Assembly: GCA_903844635.1 (NCBI GenBank)
Contig: CAIMUF010000062.1
Location: 1-53,267 of the forward strand
DNA: 53,267 bases
Direction: 5' to 3'
Source of the DNA: an uncultured Sulfuricurvum sp.
GTDB taxonomy: Bacteria; Campylobacterota; Campylobacteria; Campylobacterales; Sulfurimonadaceae
The position numbers and the translations under genes were made by a program. Of the stretch, positions 1,721-33,511 are shown in pieces. Position 1 is the stretch's first letter. Each line of letters starts with the position of its first letter. The notes below the pieces were generated by a model that worked only from the letters and a program-made list of their open reading frames with translations, searched no databases and was not told where the DNA came from.

Positions 1721-2270
1721 GAAAATCCTTCATTCTACGCACCCCATCAGGTGTGATCAGCAGATCGCCTTGTATGTCATAATCATCACACAACGGTAAT
1801 GCAGTATAGCAAACACATGACTGTACAAAAATAGTTAACGGTTTACGTTTCAGTGTGGGAAAAAAACGATCATACATGCCTTTGCCAAAACCAATTCGGC
1901 GTCCAGCTCCATCCACACCCACGACGGGGACAATAGCAATATCAATTAATTTTATATTTAAGTTTGAAATCCGAGGTTCATAAATCCCGAAGGCTTTACG
2001 CTCCAACGGCAACCTTAATGGTACCATCTTGAAACTGACGTCATCCATAAATGGTAAATATAATGATTTTTTTGAGCGTAGAGCTAAAATAGTACGACGA
2101 ATATCCGCTTCAAAACCAAAAGGCCAATAAAATAAAATTCTCTTCGAAGAGTTATGACGTAAAAATTTTAAAAGATAATGATTAATACGTGAATCACGAT
2201 ACAATTTACCCGTTTTCGGAAGATTTTTTTGTTGTTTTAAACAGTGGTCACGAAAATCATTTTTGGTCAC
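1632..2270 (-). CDS. 5-formyltetrahydrofolate cyclo-ligase
   Basis: A 212-residue member of the MTHFS family, which converts 5-formyl-THF to 5,10-methenyl-THF with ATP. N-terminal basic residues lie in the ATP-binding region, and the family glycine-rich motif is seen as RRIGFGKGMYDRFF. The start is GTG at 2270, supported by AAAAAGG eight bases upstream. The conserved part ends near GDLLITPDGVRRMKDF. The last 29 or so residues are basic, look unconserved, and are read through the start of rny. It is probably co-transcribed with rny from the region shared with the divergent TlpA-like gene. Confidence 0.85.
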   Translation of the reverse strand: MTKNDFRDHCLKQQKNLPKTGKLYRDSRINHYLLKFLRHNSSKRILFYWPFGFEADIRRTILALRSKKSLYLPFMDDVSFKMVPLRLPLERKAFGIYEPRISNLNIKLIDIAIVPVVGVDGAGRRIGFGKGMYDRFFPTLKRKPLTIFVQSCVCYTALPLCDDYDIQGDLLITPDGVRRMKDFHVKQPARRQWHSHFKRDSRIFNFKKNITL

Positions 2271-2287
2271 TTCTAAACCTTTTTCGA

Positions 2288-2293
2288 TATAAT
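2288..2293 (+). promoter_or_regulatory. -10 box upstream of the TlpA-like gene
   Basis: Perfect TATAAT at 2288-2293, 34 bases before the chosen ATG at 2327. A weak TTGGTC lies at 2263-2268 with a 19-base spacer. The box falls in the short gap between divergent genes, which makes promoter function likely. It would drive the TlpA-like gene, ftsY and radA. Confidence 0.5.
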
Positions 2294-2326
2294 CATCATA
2301 TTCTAGCCAATTTACAAAGGTTATCC

Positions 2327-2875
2327 ATGCGTTTTTCCACTTTTTTTATCTCTTTAGTTTCTGCAATGTTCCTCTTTACAGGATGCAGTGATAATTCACC
2401 TGAAGAATCATTGGTCTCTACCGCTTCGTTTAACCTGCTTGATACCCAAGGCAAGTCGTACAGTGTCGAAAAACAGGGAAGTAATTTTACCCTCAGTGAT
2501 AGTAAAGGCAAAGTTGTACTTTTTGATGTTTTTGCTACGTGGTGTCCACCATGTCGTGCAGAAGTACGTCATTTAGGCAATTTACAAAAAAAATATGGTG
2601 ATGATTTGATCGTTATGGGGATTACGATTGAAGATGATGTCTCCAACAATGATCTTGAAAAATTCAAAGAAAAATACGGCGGTCAATATCTAATCTCCAA
2701 TAAAGCACAAAACCAAGACCTTGCACGTGCCATAGCATCTACTATCGGTGTAGGGCAACAGTTTCCTATCCCGCTTATGATTTTATACAAAGATGGTCAA
2801 TACATCACACACTATTCAGGGGCGACACCCGAAGAGATGATAGACAGTGACATTGCCCAAGCATTAGGTAAATAA
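2327..2875 (+). CDS. TlpA/ResA-like thiol-disulfide oxidoreductase lipoprotein
   Basis: A 182-residue thioredoxin-fold protein. From ATG 2327 (AAAGG seven bases upstream) it has a lipoprotein signal, MRFSTFFISLVSAMFLFTGC, with the lipid-bearing Cys at 20. This start is preferred to one 46 codons earlier, which would bury the signal. A TlpA/ResA redox motif W-C-P-P-C is at Cys73 and Cys76, with a cis-Pro region near FPIPLMILY. It probably reduces disulfides in exported proteins or cytochrome c precursors on the outer face of the inner membrane. It is followed two bases later by ftsY, so the three genes TlpA-ftsY-radA form one tight operon. Confidence 0.88.
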   Translation: MRFSTFFISLVSAMFLFTGCSDNSPEESLVSTASFNLLDTQGKSYSVEKQGSNFTLSDSKGKVVLFDVFATWCPPCRAEVRHLGNLQKKYGDDLIVMGITIEDDVSNNDLEKFKEKYGGQYLISNKAQNQDLARAIASTIGVGQQFPIPLMILYKDGQYITHYSGATPEEMIDSDIAQALGK

Positions 2876-2877
2876 TC

Positions 2878-3765
2878 ATGTTCAGTTTTATAAAAAAAGG
2901 GTTACAAAAAACCATTGAAGCCATAAGTGCTATCGTCCCTGATAAAAAACTCACTATAACTAAAGATGAACTCGAAAATATCTTACTCGAATCAGACGTT
3001 GAATATGATCTTGTTGAAATCATTTTACGTGAACTCTATCAAAATGAAGTAAGCCGTGAGCAATTACGTTCTAAACTGCTCGCAACACTCAACTTTGCTC
3101 AAAATACTCTTCCTGAAAATCCCAACAAACCTACCGTTTCTCTCATCATTGGAGTCAATGGTGCCGGAAAAACAACAACCATTGCAAAACTGGCACAACG
3201 CCATCTCAACAACGGTGAACGCGTTATTTTAGGAGCTGGCGACACATTCCGAGCTGCTGCTATCGAACAGCTCACTCGCTGGGCCGATAAACTCGAAATC
3301 CCTATTGTCTCATCTCGACAAGGTCATGATCCTAGTGCTGTCGCCTACGACACAATCGAATCGGCTAAAGCACGAGGGTTTGAGCAAGTTATCATTGACA
3401 CCGCAGGACGTTTACATACCCAAACAAATTTGGGAAATGAACTCAAAAAAATCGTCCGTATCTGTGACAAAGCCCACACCGGTGCACCGCATCACAAAAT
3501 TCTCATCCTCGATGGCACACAAGGAAGCTCCGCCATCGCCCAAGCCAAAGCATTTAATGAAATGATCGGCATCGATGGAATTATTATCACAAAACTTGAC
3601 GGTACTGCTAAAGGTGGATCTGTGTTCAGTATCGCCTACGCGCTTGAGCTCCCGATTCTCTTCATCGGTGTAGGTGAACAACCGGAACATTTGATACCGT
3701 TTAACAAATATGAATTTGTGGACGGGATTTTGGATGCGATTTATGGGGAAGAAACTCAAAAATAA
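2878..3765 (+). CDS. ftsY: Signal recognition particle receptor FtsY
   Basis: A 295-residue SRP-type GTPase that docks the SRP-ribosome complex at the inner membrane. The NG domain carries GVNGAGKTTT at 92-101, then DTFRAAAIEQL, DTAGRL and TKLDGTAKGG. The acidic A domain of E. coli FtsY is absent, as is usual in this phylum, and the first 80 residues form the N domain. The TAA stop overlaps the radA start as TAATG, indicating translational coupling. Confidence 0.96.
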   Translation: MFSFIKKGLQKTIEAISAIVPDKKLTITKDELENILLESDVEYDLVEIILRELYQNEVSREQLRSKLLATLNFAQNTLPENPNKPTVSLIIGVNGAGKTTTIAKLAQRHLNNGERVILGAGDTFRAAAIEQLTRWADKLEIPIVSSRQGHDPSAVAYDTIESAKARGFEQVIIDTAGRLHTQTNLGNELKKIVRICDKAHTGAPHHKILILDGTQGSSAIAQAKAFNEMIGIDGIIITKLDGTAKGGSVFSIAYALELPILFIGVGEQPEHLIPFNKYEFVDGILDAIYGEETQK

Positions 3766-25334: not shown

Positions 25335-27098
25335 TTACAATGTACTCATTTTTATAACCACTTGGTTTCTTCCCTGATCTTTTGACACATAAAGCTGCTC
25401 ATCGGCTGCTTTATAAAGTTGTTCATGGGTCATAATGGATTCAGGTCGATACACAAAAATTCCCATAGAGATGGTAACATACGGCGAAGCATCATTATTT
25501 TTATGTAAGATTGATAATGCTTCCGTTTCATTTCGTATGCGATGTCCTAGATACAAATATTCATCATCACTCATATCAGATACTATTATCGCAAACTCTT
25601 CGCCCCCCAGTCTAAAAGCATATTCACCGCTTCTGGTAGTATACTGCTTTAAAATTTTGGCAATGCGGATCAAAACATCATCTCCGGCTTGATGCCCATA
25701 CGTGTCATTGTACCGTTTAAAGTGGTCCACATCCAGCATCATCAATGCCATAGTATGATTATGTCGCTTAGCACGGTTCATCTCTTCTTGAATGGTCAAT
25801 ATATAATGCCGTCGATTATACAATTCAGTCATAGGATCAGTAATCGCCAATTCTTGAAGTTTTTTAGTTTTATCTTCAATGCGTGTTTCCAATGTACGAT
25901 TAAGCTCTTCAAGCTCACGTTTTTGAGTATTTAGTACAATATTGGTCTCATATAATTGTGTCACTTTTTGTTTGATCTCAATCGCCATTTTTTTAAATGC
26001 GTGGGTCAGTAATTGCCACTCATGATCATATTTGCTGCTGTTAATATCAATATCATAGTGACCGTTTGAAATCAATAAGGCATTATGGCTCAACTCTTGA
26101 ATCGGTTTTGCAAACGAGCGAAGTGCAATAATAATCATGCCAAAGACAACCATGACACCAATGAAGAATAATAACAGTAACGATGTTGTTTGCTTGTACC
26201 ATTCGTACAGTAATTCACTTTCGTCTATTTTAACCATCATTCCACAACGAAGCTCTTTTTGATAGCCCCAGGCAACAACCGAGTTCTCCCCTGTTTCGTC
26301 AACCCTATATTTTTGCCCTCTTCCACCACGAACGGCTTCATAGATGGGATTATCCTGAGGCAATATTAAAAAAGTATGCGGGGAAATTTTTGTGTGGCGA
26401 GTGGCAAACATATTTATAAGTTTTTTGTTTTCTATGACAGCGGTAATCACTTCACCTGTTTTTCCAAGTTCACTGGAATCATTGACAACAGCTTGAATTG
26501 TTTTATTATCAATTTGGGCAGCTGAAATACCAATAATTTTTCCATTATGAATAATCGGTTCAGCTATAAAAGCAGCATAATCATTACTTGGCTCATAAAA
26601 ATGAAATTCTGATACATAAGGTTTAGTATTTTTTAGGGCATCTTTAAATACATGTGCTAGCTGTGAAGCACGATAGTCACCGGTTAAAAGGTTGGTGTGC
26701 AAATCAGATTCATGCTTTACACTATAAATAATTTCACCCTCAAGCGAAATTAAAAAAATATCATAAAATCCATTTTGTTTGGCAATAATAGTTAGTTTTT
26801 TTTGTAAACTTTCAGGTGAGTGCTTCCAAAAATACTTTTTAAAAATACTATGGTGACGCGAGGCAAAATAAAAAAGTTCAGTTATATTTGTTAAAGAGAC
26901 ATAACGTTGCTCAACATAGTTATCTATGGTTTCAATTTTATGATTAAGTATGCTGTGAATGCGGTTCAGACCATTGTGACGAATGGTTTCACGTACTTCT
27001 AAACCGATAAAAATCAAGATAGTAAAACTAAAAACGGCAATAGAACTAAGCCAAATAATAGTTCGCTTAAGTATCGTCATTTTATTCGTCAAAAACAT
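25335..27098 (-). CDS. Membrane diguanylate cyclase with periplasmic sensor
   Basis: A 587-residue protein. Membrane helices at about 12-30 and 307-330 bracket a roughly 275-residue periplasmic region with a Cache-like fold pattern (FLISLEGEIIYSV, AQIDNKTIQ). A HAMP-like segment, a coiled coil (about 385-420) and a GGDEF domain with GGEEF at about 499-503 follow, so it should make c-di-GMP. The inhibitory I-site position reads RSGE in place of RxxD, so product inhibition may be weak. AAAGG lies eight bases before the ATG. Confidence 0.92.
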   Translation of the reverse strand: MFLTNKMTILKRTIIWLSSIAVFSFTILIFIGLEVRETIRHNGLNRIHSILNHKIETIDNYVEQRYVSLTNITELFYFASRHHSIFKKYFWKHSPESLQKKLTIIAKQNGFYDIFLISLEGEIIYSVKHESDLHTNLLTGDYRASQLAHVFKDALKNTKPYVSEFHFYEPSNDYAAFIAEPIIHNGKIIGISAAQIDNKTIQAVVNDSSELGKTGEVITAVIENKKLINMFATRHTKISPHTFLILPQDNPIYEAVRGGRGQKYRVDETGENSVVAWGYQKELRCGMMVKIDESELLYEWYKQTTSLLLLFFIGVMVVFGMIIIALRSFAKPIQELSHNALLISNGHYDIDINSSKYDHEWQLLTHAFKKMAIEIKQKVTQLYETNIVLNTQKRELEELNRTLETRIEDKTKKLQELAITDPMTELYNRRHYILTIQEEMNRAKRHNHTMALMMLDVDHFKRYNDTYGHQAGDDVLIRIAKILKQYTTRSGEYAFRLGGEEFAIIVSDMSDDEYLYLGHRIRNETEALSILHKNNDASPYVTISMGIFVYRPESIMTHEQLYKAADEQLYVSKDQGRNQVVIKMSTL

Positions 27099-27233
27099 GA
27101 ACTCAACCTTTAATCGATCGACTGTTCTATCATAAAACTTTATAATAGCAAAGATGACAATTTTTATCTATTAAAGGTATTTTTAACCTATTTTTAAAAT
27201 ATTAGTAACAAAATTTGATAAAAATATAATTTG

Positions 27234-28686
27234 CTAGCTATTTGATTCAATCACCATGGAATCAAGCAAATCAAAAAGCTCATGGCTTGATTTTTCCATT
27301 CTAATCATATTTTTTATAATACGTTCTTTATTTTGACTCTGTAGACAATCATGATTGATGGCACAGGAAATTGTTTCAAGTACCGTATGGTGAATGTCTT
27401 CATGGGATTTTTCTAACTTTTTATATGATGAGGTATGCGAAAAAAAGATTTTACCGTCTCCACTGTCATACCATTTTCCTAAACGACAGTTATGGTGATC
27501 GGTGAACTTTTTTGCTTTTTCCGCATCTTGATGGATAATAGTAGAATAGGCATCATCTTTAAAAATGATATGATCAACCTTAACAAGAGTCGTATACAAG
27601 GATGCATTAACATACTGAGACATCTTTGCGGTATTAAATGTTGTTTGTGCAAATTCGCCAAGCACTTCTTTGAAGTTATAAATATTACTCTGTGAATTAG
27701 CTGCAATTGCGCCTATCTCTTCTGAACTTGTGAAAATATCGCCTGCTTCTTGTTGAAGAGTCTGCAGTGTCATCGATATTTCCATCGTTGCTTTTTGTGT
27801 TCGCTCTGCTAGCTTGCGTACTTCATCAGCAACAACTGCAAAGCCTCTCCCATGTTCACCTGCACGAGCCGCTTCAATAGCTGCATTAAGAGCAAGCAAA
27901 TTGGTCTGATCTGCAATATCTTTGATGAGACCAGCAATCGTACTAATCTCGCGTGTTCGTTCATTGAGTGCGGAAATTGCACTGCTTGAGCTGGAAATCA
28001 CCTCAATTAAATGTTCAAGATCCGTAATAATGACGCCAACTGCTTGTTGAGACTGTGAAACATTTTCAGCTGATTTTGATGAAGCCATATTGATTTTTTG
28101 AGTTAATTCACTGTTTTTATGAAGAGCACTTTGAATAACACTAAAGCCCTTGGCTACACCACCACTAGTTTCTTCCAATGCTGCTGAGAGTTCTGCCGTC
28201 ATTTTGCCAGTATACGATTTCGAAATAAAATCTATTGCCAGATTAAGTTCAGGACATGATGCTGCAAAATCCCCTTTATACCCCTCCTTAAAAATAATTC
28301 GATTTCCATTTCCCGTATTGGCTGATTTAATCGAATCACGGATATCACGCATCATCTGTTCTGTTTGATCCAACAAATCGTTAATTCCCCACGCAACTCC
28401 TTGTAATACATGCGTACTAGGTATATTCGTAACGCGCTCAGAGAGCTTCCCACTACCTGCTTTTATTAAAACGTCACGGATTTGACGAATAAGATCATCA
28501 TTAAAAATTTTTTCACATGCTTCCGATTCCGGAATAAACAATCCTATCAGTATCAATACACCGATAATAATCGAAGGAATTATAATCCCTAAAAATACCA
28601 AATACCAAATACCCAGTAGCACCTGTTGCTAATAAAAGATAAAGTAATGTTTGTTTATTGCTGAAGACTGAGGACAAATCCATCAT
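27234..28686 (-). CDS. Methyl-accepting chemotaxis protein with CZB domain; frame broken by a 7-bp repeat
   Basis: The best start is the ATG at 28686, with AAGGAG six bases upstream. It reads [20 protein letters not shown], the first membrane helix. Three tandem GGTATTT units at 28593-28613 then shift the frame. The long downstream frame opens at a GTG at 28622 without a ribosome-binding site and encodes the rest: second hydrophobic stretch, signalling domain (hairpin region around [19 protein letters not shown]), and a C-terminal zinc-binding CZB domain with [13 protein letters not shown]. With two units the whole reads as one 481-residue receptor. It has no periplasmic domain. It is coupled to the upstream PAS gene. 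Confidence 0.85.
28593..28613 (-). repeat. Three tandem copies of GGTATTT inside the MCP gene
   Basis: On the minus strand the units are GGTATTT at 28613-28607, 28606-28600 and 28599-28593, perfect and contiguous. Seven bases is not a multiple of three, so adding or losing one unit changes the frame of the first membrane segment. Two units give a continuous receptor. Three, as here, do not. Confidence 0.9.
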
Positions 28687-29164
28687 AATCAACTCCTTTT
28701 TCGGTTAAAATTTTATCCAGTAATTTTGCAGAAGCATCTATCCCACTACTTCGTTCAGCCGAAAGTAGCTGAGCATAAAGATCTGGGATCACCGCCATTG
28801 CTTTTGCACTTGGTTTACGCCGAACCGAATGAAAGTCCCGAATCGAATTATTGATATCAAGAGTTGCGGTGACGTTGGCATAAACCCAATAAAACGATCC
28901 ATTTTTGGTAAGATTTTTGACGTAGGCAAAGATCTCTTGCTTATTTCGAATACGATCCCACAAAAGCTTAAAAATAATTTTTGGCATATCAGGATGTCTC
29001 AGAATTGAATGCTCAGCATATAAAAGTTCTTTTTCGTCGTATCCTGACATCTTGATAAAAATTTTATTGCCGTAAATAATTCTTCCGTCTAAACCTGTCT
29101 TCGAAACAATAAAATCATCTGAATTCAATTGTATTTCAGATTGTGTAGGAGTGGGTCTTTGCAT
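28655..29164 (-). CDS. Aer-type PAS domain protein
   Basis: A 169-residue soluble protein that is nearly all one PAS domain of the aerotaxis type (SDDFIVSKTGLDGRIIYGN, then FIKMSGYDEKELL, RHPDMPKIIFKLLW and FAYVKNLTKNGSFYWVYANV). In Aer this kind of PAS binds FAD; here the cofactor is unknown. A short C-terminal helical region follows. The MCP start codon lies 32 bases before its stop, so the sensor PAS and the signalling MCP are made together and probably act as a split energy-taxis receptor. AAAGG supports the start at 29164. Confidence 0.9.
   Translation of the reverse strand: MQRPTPTQSEIQLNSDDFIVSKTGLDGRIIYGNKIFIKMSGYDEKELLYAEHSILRHPDMPKIIFKLLWDRIRNKQEIFAYVKNLTKNGSFYWVYANVTATLDINNSIRDFHSVRRKPSAKAMAVIPDLYAQLLSAERSSGIDASAKLLDKILTEKGVDYDGFVLSLQQ
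28693..28698 (-). promoter_or_regulatory. Ribosome-binding site that fixes the MCP start
   Basis: AAGGAG on the minus strand, six bases before ATG 28686 and inside the end of the PAS gene. It is a strong consensus site and argues that translation begins here and not at the GTG 64 bases downstream. Confidence 0.75.
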
Positions 29165-29257
29165 TATTATTACCTTTCTTATTCTTAAAATTAAATTTAT
29201 TCAAAACAGACATAATCACGGCTTTGGATGGAATATGTTTTTCGTAGACCAATGCTC

Positions 29258-31696
29258 TCATTTTCGATTTCCCATTACAAATTCATAAAAGGCATTTGCA
29301 TCAACAGCTTTACTAAAATAGAAACCTTGTACTTTTTGACACCCATTTTGTAGCAAAAATTCTACTTGTTCTAGCTTTTCTACCCCCTCTGCGATCACTT
29401 TCATTCCTAGATTATGCGCCAAATCAATCACTGCTTTTACAATCATTCGATCATCCAAATTATTGGATATTTCATCAATAAATGATTTGTCTATTTTCAA
29501 TACATCGACAGGAAATTGTTTCAGATATTTCAACGAAGAGTAACCGGTTCCAAAATCATCGATGGAGAGTGAAAGACCCATTTCTTTAAGCTGCTTCATC
29601 ATTTCAATACTGCTTTTGACATCATTCATAAGCATACTCTCTGTGATTTCCATCTCAAGAGAGTGGACGTTTACACCCTCTTGTGTAATAACTGTATCAA
29701 GGATTTTTACCAAATTTGGATCACGAAACTGAACAGCAGAAAGATTAACAGAGACTATTATCCCAGTAAGTCCTCGCTCTTCCCATTCACTCAAATCACG
29801 GCAAACCTGTCTAAAAACCCATTCTCCCATTCGTGCTATCATCCCTGTTTCTTCGGCTAAAGGGATAAATTGTGATGGAGGGACGAAACCAAAGGTAGGA
29901 TGATTCCATCGGATAAGTGCTTCTGCCCCCTCAACGCTGTGATCGATAAGATTGATTTTAGGTTGATAATAGACCATAAACTGCTGTTCATCATATGCGC
30001 GATGGAGACAGGATTCGAGGGTCAATCGCTCTAATGTTTTACGATTCATCTCATAATCATAAAATTCATAACGATTTTTCCCTTTGTCTTTTGCTGCGTA
30101 CATAGCGGTATCCGCATTTTTAATTAACTCCTGAATATCACAGCCATCATCGGGATAGATACTAATACCGATGCTCGCCGTAATGTAAACAGAACGTTCT
30201 CCAATCTTAAATTCTGCCGAAAGCTCTTTTAAAATCTTGTTTACAACAATAATAATATCGCTGATTTGACTGTAGCCATCGATGATTATGGTAAATTCAT
30301 CACCGCCAAGACGACATACCGTATCGCTTTCACGCATGTATTTTTTTAGTCTTAAAGCAACTTCTTGGAGTAATAAATCTCCTGCATCGTGCCCCAGAGA
30401 ATCATTAATTTTCTTAAAGCCATCCAAATCAATAAAGAATAGACCTAAAGGTATCTCTTTTCTCCGTGCCATGACGATACTTTGCTTGAGACGTTCCATA
30501 AAGAGCAGACGATTAGGAAGATTCGTAAGAGCATCATAGTGTGCCAGCTGATGAATATGATCCTGCGTCATCTTCTTTTCGGTCAAATCACTAAAAAGCC
30601 CTATATAATTGATGACATCACCATTTTTGTTTTTGATACTGTAGATGCTGAGCCATTCGGGATAGATTTCTCCACTTTTTCGACGATTAAAGATTTGCCC
30701 TTGCCACATCCCTGTGCGTTTGAGTGTTGCCCACATGTTTTTATAAAAATCATCATCATGTTGCCCTGACTGCAGTATCGCCGGTGTTTTTCCGACGACT
30801 TCCGAAAACTCATAGCCTGTTACTTCCGTAAAAGTTCGATTGATCTGCTGAATACGCAGTTCATTATCGGTAAGTACGATGCCTTCTATACTGTTGTCAA
30901 AAAGTTTCTCCGCCATTTTACTTTGACGTTCATTGACAAGATGTTCTCGCTTATCTGAAAAAATGATAATGCCTGCTTCGTTCTGAACATCCTCATCTTT
31001 GCTTTTAATCGGAATGATATTGAGAGTAATCGGGATCAATGTTCCAAATCTGGACTGCAACTCAAAACCGTGCGGAAGCGATAAAAGTGTTTGTGTGTCC
31101 AGAAGAGTCAATGGATTTATAGATTCGTCTTTGTTTATCCCCGAATTGATCAAGACAAACACATCACTTAGATTACGCTTGACCGCTTCTTTTGCTTTCC
31201 AGCCGCTTAAGGCTTCCGCCATCGCATTCAAATAGCGGATTTTCCCCTCGTGGTCAAAAGAGATAACGGCATCACCGATACTTGCAAGTGTTGTTGAGTA
31301 GCATGCATCAAGAGCTTGATCTACTTCGTGACGATGTAAAGCCATTTCAATATTACTGCGGAGCATTTGAGCATTAAACGGTTTAACAATATAACCGTGA
31401 GGATGGCTCTTTTTTGCCCGAGCAAGGGTCTTTTCGTCCGCATACGCCGTCAAAAATACCACCGGAATTCCAAATAATTCATTAATTTGCTTAGCCGCGC
31501 TGATACCGTCACGCTCCCCTTTGAGCACAATGTCCATCAAAACCAAATCAGGACTGTGTTTTGCAGCCATTTTAAGGGCAATTTTGGCAGTATCCGCAAT
31601 GCCGCACACCTCATATCCTAACTGTTCCAATCGATCCTGCAAATCCAGCGCAACGATTCCCTCGTCTTCTACAATAAGAATCTTCTTTAGTTTCAT
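29258..31696 (-). CDS. REC-PAS-PAS-GGDEF-EAL c-di-GMP protein
   Basis: An 812-residue soluble protein. It has a receiver (1-120, Asp55 in LVLMDIVLKGERDG), two PAS domains (about 130-245 and 260-375), a GGDEF domain with intact GGDEF at 464-468 and an RESD inhibitory site just before it, and an EAL domain with E-A-L at 592-594 and DDFGTG at about 713-718. Both cyclase and phosphodiesterase motifs look intact, so which one dominates cannot be told. Its start overlaps the kinase stop codon (ATGA), so the upstream kinase is the likely phosphate donor. Confidence 0.94.
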   Translation of the reverse strand: MKLKKILIVEDEGIVALDLQDRLEQLGYEVCGIADTAKIALKMAAKHSPDLVLMDIVLKGERDGISAAKQINELFGIPVVFLTAYADEKTLARAKKSHPHGYIVKPFNAQMLRSNIEMALHRHEVDQALDACYSTTLASIGDAVISFDHEGKIRYLNAMAEALSGWKAKEAVKRNLSDVFVLINSGINKDESINPLTLLDTQTLLSLPHGFELQSRFGTLIPITLNIIPIKSKDEDVQNEAGIIIFSDKREHLVNERQSKMAEKLFDNSIEGIVLTDNELRIQQINRTFTEVTGYEFSEVVGKTPAILQSGQHDDDFYKNMWATLKRTGMWQGQIFNRRKSGEIYPEWLSIYSIKNKNGDVINYIGLFSDLTEKKMTQDHIHQLAHYDALTNLPNRLLFMERLKQSIVMARRKEIPLGLFFIDLDGFKKINDSLGHDAGDLLLQEVALRLKKYMRESDTVCRLGGDEFTIIIDGYSQISDIIIVVNKILKELSAEFKIGERSVYITASIGISIYPDDGCDIQELIKNADTAMYAAKDKGKNRYEFYDYEMNRKTLERLTLESCLHRAYDEQQFMVYYQPKINLIDHSVEGAEALIRWNHPTFGFVPPSQFIPLAEETGMIARMGEWVFRQVCRDLSEWEERGLTGIIVSVNLSAVQFRDPNLVKILDTVITQEGVNVHSLEMEITESMLMNDVKSSIEMMKQLKEMGLSLSIDDFGTGYSSLKYLKQFPVDVLKIDKSFIDEISNNLDDRMIVKAVIDLAHNLGMKVIAEGVEKLEQVEFLLQNGCQKVQGFYFSKAVDANAFYEFVMGNRK

Positions 31697-32727
31697 AACT
31701 GTGCTTCCTCCTCATTAATCACATCAGGAGCAGTGAAAAGAATCCGGAATTCTGTCCCTTCTCCATCGTACCTTTTTAGTTCGCCATCAAGCTGTTTTGC
31801 CAAAATAGTGACCATTTTCAACCCCACGGAGATATTTTCATTTTCGGGATTTGGATGGAATCCGATTCCTGAATCTTTGACACTCAAGGTAAGCTCTCCA
31901 TCCTTATTTGAGTTGAGGGTAACCTCAATAATTTTGCTAGAGGTATCTTTCGTAAAAGCGTGCCCAATGGCATTTGTAATAAGCTCATTAACAATTAACC
32001 CGCACGGCATTGCCGTATCCATGAGGAAAAATAACTTTTGGGTATTTAGATTGATACTAATCCCTTGTGCCAATGGGCCAAATGAATCAATCAATGATGC
32101 AATCAAATATTTCAAATATTTGGACATATCGACGCGTCCCGCTATATCAGATTTATAGAGGATCTCATGGACTGTGGCTATGGCATGGATACGATTTTGA
32201 GTCTCTTGCAGTACATTTAAAACGGATTCATTTTTGATTTTTTTGCTCCCGAGAGACAAAAGACTCGAAATAGTTTGCAAGTTATTTTTAACACGGTGAT
32301 GAATCTCTTTTAGCAGCTGTTCTTTTTCTTGAAGCGAGATTGAGATTTCTTCATTTTGTTGTATAAATTTAGAAATATCATGGACGACACTAACCACGCA
32401 CTCCGCTGTATCTTTACAAAATACGCTAGAAATTTCAACAGGGAGCATGTCTCCATTTTGTTTACGATATAAACTCTGAGTTTGAATTCGTCCATTATGC
32501 TTAAGGGCTGTTGTCTGAGCCTGCCATGTAAGAAGATCAGGTATATGATAATCCAAATCATTAATGTGCTTTTCCATCAATTCGGATACACTGAATCCTA
32601 GTAAAAGCGCAAAATAATCATTCACAAAAAGGACATTGCCCTCAACTGGATCAAATACAATAAGAGGATCTGGGATACAGTAACTAAAGGGCAAGGGTGT
32701 TGAGCGTAGGTTAGATATTGTAGGCAT
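31693..32727 (-). CDS. PAS-containing sensor histidine kinase (HisKA_2 / HWE-like)
   Basis: A 344-residue soluble kinase. An N-terminal PAS domain (about 15-125, with GNVLFVNDYFALLLGFS) is followed by the HisKA_2 dimerisation motif EIHHRVKNNLQT, phosphoacceptor His144, and an ATPase domain (NELITNAIGHAF, DSGIGF, GLKMV). Kinases of this type often lack a membrane anchor and work with nearby response regulators. It lies between a response regulator gene and the REC-GGDEF-EAL gene on the same strand. AAAGG precedes the ATG. Confidence 0.92.
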   Translation of the reverse strand: MPTISNLRSTPLPFSYCIPDPLIVFDPVEGNVLFVNDYFALLLGFSVSELMEKHINDLDYHIPDLLTWQAQTTALKHNGRIQTQSLYRKQNGDMLPVEISSVFCKDTAECVVSVVHDISKFIQQNEEISISLQEKEQLLKEIHHRVKNNLQTISSLLSLGSKKIKNESVLNVLQETQNRIHAIATVHEILYKSDIAGRVDMSKYLKYLIASLIDSFGPLAQGISINLNTQKLFFLMDTAMPCGLIVNELITNAIGHAFTKDTSSKIIEVTLNSNKDGELTLSVKDSGIGFHPNPENENISVGLKMVTILAKQLDGELKRYDGEGTEFRILFTAPDVINEEEAQL

Positions 32728-32794
32728 TCTGATATCCTTTCTAACTTGGACATCTATTATAGGACATTTTGCGTGACAAAAGCGTCACAAACGA

Positions 32795-33511
32795 TTATAC
32801 CGACTGAGAGACAAATGCGCTGAGGCAACAACCGTTACCCTGAAGTACCCTAATAATTTGATAATTAAGCTTGACATGAAGACGATAAATAAGAGTTCTA
32901 CGGCTACTGTCGCTCATTGAACTGTTTGGCCAAATATGATATTCCAGTTCTTTAAAACAGACTACTTTGTACGGATGTAAGGCAAGATAAGAAAGAAGGG
33001 TTCGTTCTTTGGCAGTAATATGAAGTGCAGATCCATCGTTGGTCAAAATTCCACTTTCTACTCTAAAGCGATATCCGCCTCCAAGATCTAAAACCTGGGT
33101 GGTTTGATCATCATAGGAAATTTTAGATTGACGAAGTGCCAATGAAATCAGAGCAAACAGTTCCGCATAACGATACGATTTTACAAGGTAGCCACATGGA
33201 CTAGTTTCAACAGCTAGCTTAACTGTCTGCATATCAATTGATGCACTTAGATAAATGACAGAGGGCGTATACTTTAAATAAATACGCTTCACAATATCAA
33301 TCCCGCTTTCTTTTGTCTGAAGAGTAATATCACACAAAAGAATGTCCGCTGGAGTATGTGTCATCACATCAAGTGCATCAGGATAATTTTTAACAATTCC
33401 AATAACATGACATCCCATTTCTTCCACTGCCAAACTAAGTTCAAGGGCAATAATAGGATCATCTTCGATAATAAGAATCTTGTTATGTTGATGGTGTGAA
33501 ATTAATGACAA
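32795..33511 (-). CDS. OmpR-like response regulator
   Basis: A 238-residue protein with a receiver domain (about 10-125; Asp17-Asp18 and phosphoacceptor Asp61 in LLCDITLQTKESG) and a winged-helix DNA-binding domain (about 150-238; LLSYLALHPYKVV, FKELEYHIW, LIYRLHVKL). The only available start in the frame is TTG at 33511, with GGGG ten bases upstream; no ATG or GTG occurs between it and the upstream stop. The likely partner kinase gene follows 67 bases downstream, so this is the first gene of the signalling operon. Confidence 0.9.
   Translation of the reverse strand: MSLISHHQHNKILIIEDDPIIALELSLAVEEMGCHVIGIVKNYPDALDVMTHTPADILLCDITLQTKESGIDIVKRIYLKYTPSVIYLSASIDMQTVKLAVETSPCGYLVKSYRYAELFALISLALRQSKISYDDQTTQVLDLGGGYRFRVESGILTNDGSALHITAKERTLLSYLALHPYKVVCFKELEYHIWPNSSMSDSSRRTLIYRLHVKLNYQIIRVLQGNGCCLSAFVSQSV

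Follow-up and report, generated by a model that had tools for sequence, protein, structure and literature searches.

A CetA-like energy-taxis receptor gene of an uncultured, sulfur-oxidising Sulfuricurvum sp. was found to run out of frame at three perfect tandem GGTATTT units, and the break is probably the product of a recent 7-bp slippage duplication rather than an evolved switch. The gene lies on a stretch of 53,267 nucleotides that was analysed as a whole (hereafter, the window) and comprises the following features:

27234–28686, minus strand: entire CetA-like receptor gene, encoding 481 aa when read with two units and frameshifted here (based on hairpin alignment to homologues).
28513–28686, minus strand: 5′ fragment of the receptor, 57 aa with the first membrane helix, ending at TGA 28515–28513.
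28593–28613, minus strand: three perfect tandem GGTATTT units (AAATACC on the plus strand), within the codons of the receptor membrane hairpin.
27234–28622, minus strand: 3′ frame of the receptor, 462 aa from GTG 28622 and lacking a Shine-Dalgarno sequence, with the second membrane helix, PF00015 and PF13682.
28655–29164, minus strand: intact partner gene, encoding an Aer-type single-PAS protein of 169 aa (based on domain match and structure match).
28655–28686, minus strand: 32-nt overlap between the end of the PAS gene and the start of the receptor gene (based on homologue comparison).

The receptor was taken to start at ATG 28686 on the minus strand, which is preceded by AAGGAG with a spacer of 6 nt. 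This start, proposed in the initial annotation, was borne out by a set of 24 distinct homologous sequences from the genus, the order and the phylum: in 24 of 24 the equivalent ATG, situated within the last codons of the PAS gene, opens one uninterrupted frame. The frame of the window gene is lost where the annotation had placed the loss, at the three perfect units at 28613–28593 of the minus strand. Depending on the number of GGTATTT units, translation from ATG 28686 yields products of 50 (no unit), 27 (one), 57 (three) or 34 residues (four), and the frame stays open with two units (481 residues) or five (488 residues). The expected 481-residue receptor on removal of one unit was hence recovered by translation, in agreement with the homologues, and the continuous two-helix anchor of the two-unit frame also held, its hairpin aligning without a gap to every homologue except one, which has a 1-aa insertion. 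As read from the assembly, the window would carry a +7 tandem duplication in which the third GGTATTT unit breaks the frame.

None of the 24 homologues was out of frame, and perfect tandem repeats of two or more units (periods of 4, 5, 7 and 8) were absent from their first 180 nt. The alignment with homologues suggested by the initial annotation was run, and a three-unit array with a GTG start occurred in 0 of 24. Since the shared ATG opens an intact frame in every homologue and the array is found in none, the downstream GTG is not the real start. In the homologue L004, the codons ATT TAT TTT GCC TTT align to GGG TAT TTG GTA TTT of the window gene, so that the two-unit state is a codon coincidence (Gly-Tyr-Leu-Val-Phe). 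A search of the genus found 11 other carriers among 41 genomes, the closest with at most 76% identity over the first 169 residues, and a search of genome contigs for the receptor returned homologues with no sister strain among them. Of the two closest homologues, one comes from a MAG of Sulfuricurvum sp., which the search grouping assigns to the same genus; on this basis the genome is placed with Sulfuricurvum.

The repeat background was sampled in 418 kb, consisting of the window and 27 stretches of the same genome. This array was the only perfect 3×7 repeat in the sample, and order-2 and order-5 Markov sequence gave an expectation of 0.0; because of this difference, the third unit is not chance lettering but a mutational event. 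Perfect heptamer repeats with two or slightly more units were present at 16 other places in the same 418 kb, and by extrapolation the whole genome should contain roughly a hundred two-unit heptamer sites. The 14-mer GGTATTTGGTATTT had no second occurrence in the 2.67-Mb genome. One slippage of 7 bp at a pre-existing two-unit site accounts for the array.

Elsewhere in the gene no decay was seen, which argues for a duplication that is either recent or not fixed. Of the 138 columns that do not vary among the rest of its clade, the window gene differs at 2 (intact relatives at 0–7), and its branch length of 0.26 compares with 0.29 (0.16 + 0.13) for its sisters. The dN/dS against the sisters was about 0.13; dS to these nearest relatives is near saturation, so that the age estimate is coarse. 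Judging from these values, the receptor gene likely evolved under normal constraint up to a recent date, or most cells still carry it intact, in keeping with the recent inactivation that the initial annotation had considered.

The downstream product contains an MCP signalling domain (PF00015) and a CZB zinc-binding domain (PF13682). In the two-unit frame, residues 13–56 form a hydrophobic N-terminal hairpin and a periplasmic domain is absent; a Pfam search for HAMP after the anchor (E ≤ 0.001) reported no match. The best solved relative of the PAS partner is the PAS domain of an aerotaxis receptor (8dik, E = 2e-20). Sensor and transducer are thus laid out in bipartite form, with the PAS protein and the membrane MCP encoded by separate, adjacent genes, and the receptor gene would encode the membrane component of a split energy-taxis receptor of the CetAB type, its role in taxis being predicted from this layout. 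The pair lies in a dense signalling cluster on the minus strand (25335–33511), with a GGDEF protein downstream and a response-regulator PAS-GGDEF-EAL protein, a PAS-histidine kinase and a response regulator upstream.

Comparison of the window with its homologues (L004, L006–L019, L021, L033–L040) showed a PAS/receptor overlap of exactly 32 nt in 21 of the 24 homologues and in the window gene (22 of 25), the others having 29 or 35 nt. The Shine-Dalgarno sequence and the ATG of the receptor sit inside the conserved C-terminal YD.F(I/V)LSLQQ codons of the PAS gene. Such strict conservation of the overlap across the phylum implies that the two genes are probably translationally coupled. The PAS/MCP-CZB cassette was present in 12 of 41 genus genomes (E ≤ 1e-20), and its gene neighbourhood differed in each relative (L081, L082, L083, L085); this distribution, together with the differing neighbourhoods, suggests that both genes of the cassette move or are lost together. 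A second PAS + MCP-CZB pair, intact and with overlapping genes, was located elsewhere in the genome (G000:C55:74000-80000, L084, positions 1750–3667), with identities of 57% (PAS) and 43% (MCP) to the window pair. With this second intact pair, in a genome that encodes 16 CZB domains, loss of the window receptor would be tolerable.

In the proposed sequence of events, the cassette consists of a cytoplasmic Aer-type PAS sensor and a membrane-hairpin MCP-CZB transducer, encoded by two probably coupled genes. Replication slippage would have converted the two-unit site GGG TAT TTG GTA TTT into three units, whereupon translation from ATG 28686 would halt after 57 residues and no working receptor would be made, a loss of function predicted from the sequence. 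The PAS protein would be left without its transducer, and reversion by slippage could occur at a low rate.

Slippage of this kind was one of two readings in the initial annotation, which described a typical contingency-locus design. Under that explanation, GGTATTT slippage would toggle the receptor between ON (two or five units) and OFF (three or four) at a locus selected for switching. The repeat is perfect, its unit is not a multiple of three, it lies early in the gene, a change in unit number shifts the frame, and the two- and five-unit states are in frame; the array is also the sole 3×7 repeat in the 418-kb sample. Reversible slippage is known for short arrays, such as 3×CTGG in lacI (PMC3485313) and TTTA in icaC of S. 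aureus (PMC4117637), and the tlpB chemoreceptor gene of H. pylori has a leader with a variable G-tract (PMC8295292). The array itself has only three units, short of a hypermutable length, and its ON state would be the two-unit form, the least slippage-prone array possible. Contingency loci retain a long array across strains, whereas here no repeat of varying unit number was kept in related genomes: the array is missing from all 24 homologues. G/C tracts of 9 or more are moreover absent from the genome, and the 418-kb sample holds no further 3×7 array. The contingency-locus description did not stand up to the three-unit length, the coincidental origin of the two-unit state and the relatives, of which none has the array or is out of frame. 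We consider a selected contingency locus quite unlikely, as we do a true low-rate heptamer phase switch of a CetA-like energy-taxis receptor in a free-living, non-pathogenic campylobacterote; a literature search on phase variation in Sulfuricurvum returned nothing relevant.

The third unit could also be an assembly or sequencing artefact or the consensus of a mixed population, the true gene being two-unit and intact. The undecayed remainder of the gene would fit this, as would the draft state of the genome (86 contigs) and the fact that a single broken gene was noticed in the 53-kb window, in which coding is otherwise near-continuous. Against this, homopolymer errors are of a different kind from a duplication of 7 bp, and an array of 21 bp fits within any short read. 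Because the array fits any read, a real, fixed allele is favoured over a minority allele or an assembly slip, judging from the assembled sequence alone, and we regard an artefact as unlikely. Even less can be said for a receptor still translated in the long frame, whether ribosomes re-initiate at GTG 28622 once past the PAS stop or shift by +1; we hold this to be highly improbable. The long frame is intact and constrained across the family, 33 nt separate the PAS stop from GTG 28622, and Tlp7 of C. jejuni works when split (PMC3461409). However, TAG 28631 blocks any start farther upstream in the long frame, leaving GTG 28622 or later TTG/ATG codons as possible starts, and a search of these membrane-region starts found no real Shine-Dalgarno sequence at any of them, as the initial annotation had stated for the GTG. 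A prfB-like or homopolymer shift signal, sought in the overlap of the two frames, was not found either, which made the GTG start, re-initiation and +1 frameshifting weak candidates. A product initiated at the GTG would lack the first helix and its topology would be wrong, and the homologues start at the ATG.

A recent slippage duplication, the preferred explanation, is an ordinary finding, accurately described; on the sequence at hand, phase variation would be possible but unsupported, and nothing shows a selected reversal. If the allele is real, it would represent another strain-level loss of a chemoreceptor from a single slippage event, with the PAS partner and the paralogous pair intact. 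If the switch were true, energy taxis of a free-living bacterium would join the traits known to be phase-variable, a reading not favoured by the evidence. Of more use, as a by-product, is the coupled PAS/MCP-CZB cassette, with its 32-nt gene overlap strictly conserved across Campylobacterota.

In the CetA/CetB/CetC system of C. jejuni, a cytoplasmic single-PAS protein acts with a separate membrane transducer made up of a two-helix hairpin and an MCP domain, the hydrophobic hairpin of CetA spanning residues 6–43 (PMC2628428, PMC3558505). The layout compared here likewise represents a split sensor with the PAS gene upstream of the transducer, as cetC is of cetA. Unlike in C. jejuni, the present transducer has a C-terminal CZB domain, Pfam reported no HAMP match, the PAS and receptor genes overlap by 32 nt and the transducer is frameshifted.

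The array resembles the 3×CTGG of lacI, a frameshift hotspot that slips both ways (PMC3485313), in having three short perfect coding units of which the gain or loss of one shifts the frame, but its unit is of 7 rather than 4 nucleotides and its slippage is deduced from sequence. In icaC of S. aureus, a short TTTA array confers phase variation (PMC4117637): both cases involve a few-copy tandem repeat in coding sequence in which a unit change alters the frame, reversibly so in icaC, but the icaC repeat is common to strains and varies among isolates, while the GGTATTT array is confined to a single genome. Chemoreceptor genes of Campylobacter commonly have broken frames (PMC6433261), and the tlp pseudogenes and split tlp7 of that genus (PMC6433261, PMC3461409) share with the window gene a strain-level break of a chemoreceptor frame within the same phylum. 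Those breaks are stop codons or changes of 1–2 nt, whereas the present one is a 7-bp duplication in an environmental relative.
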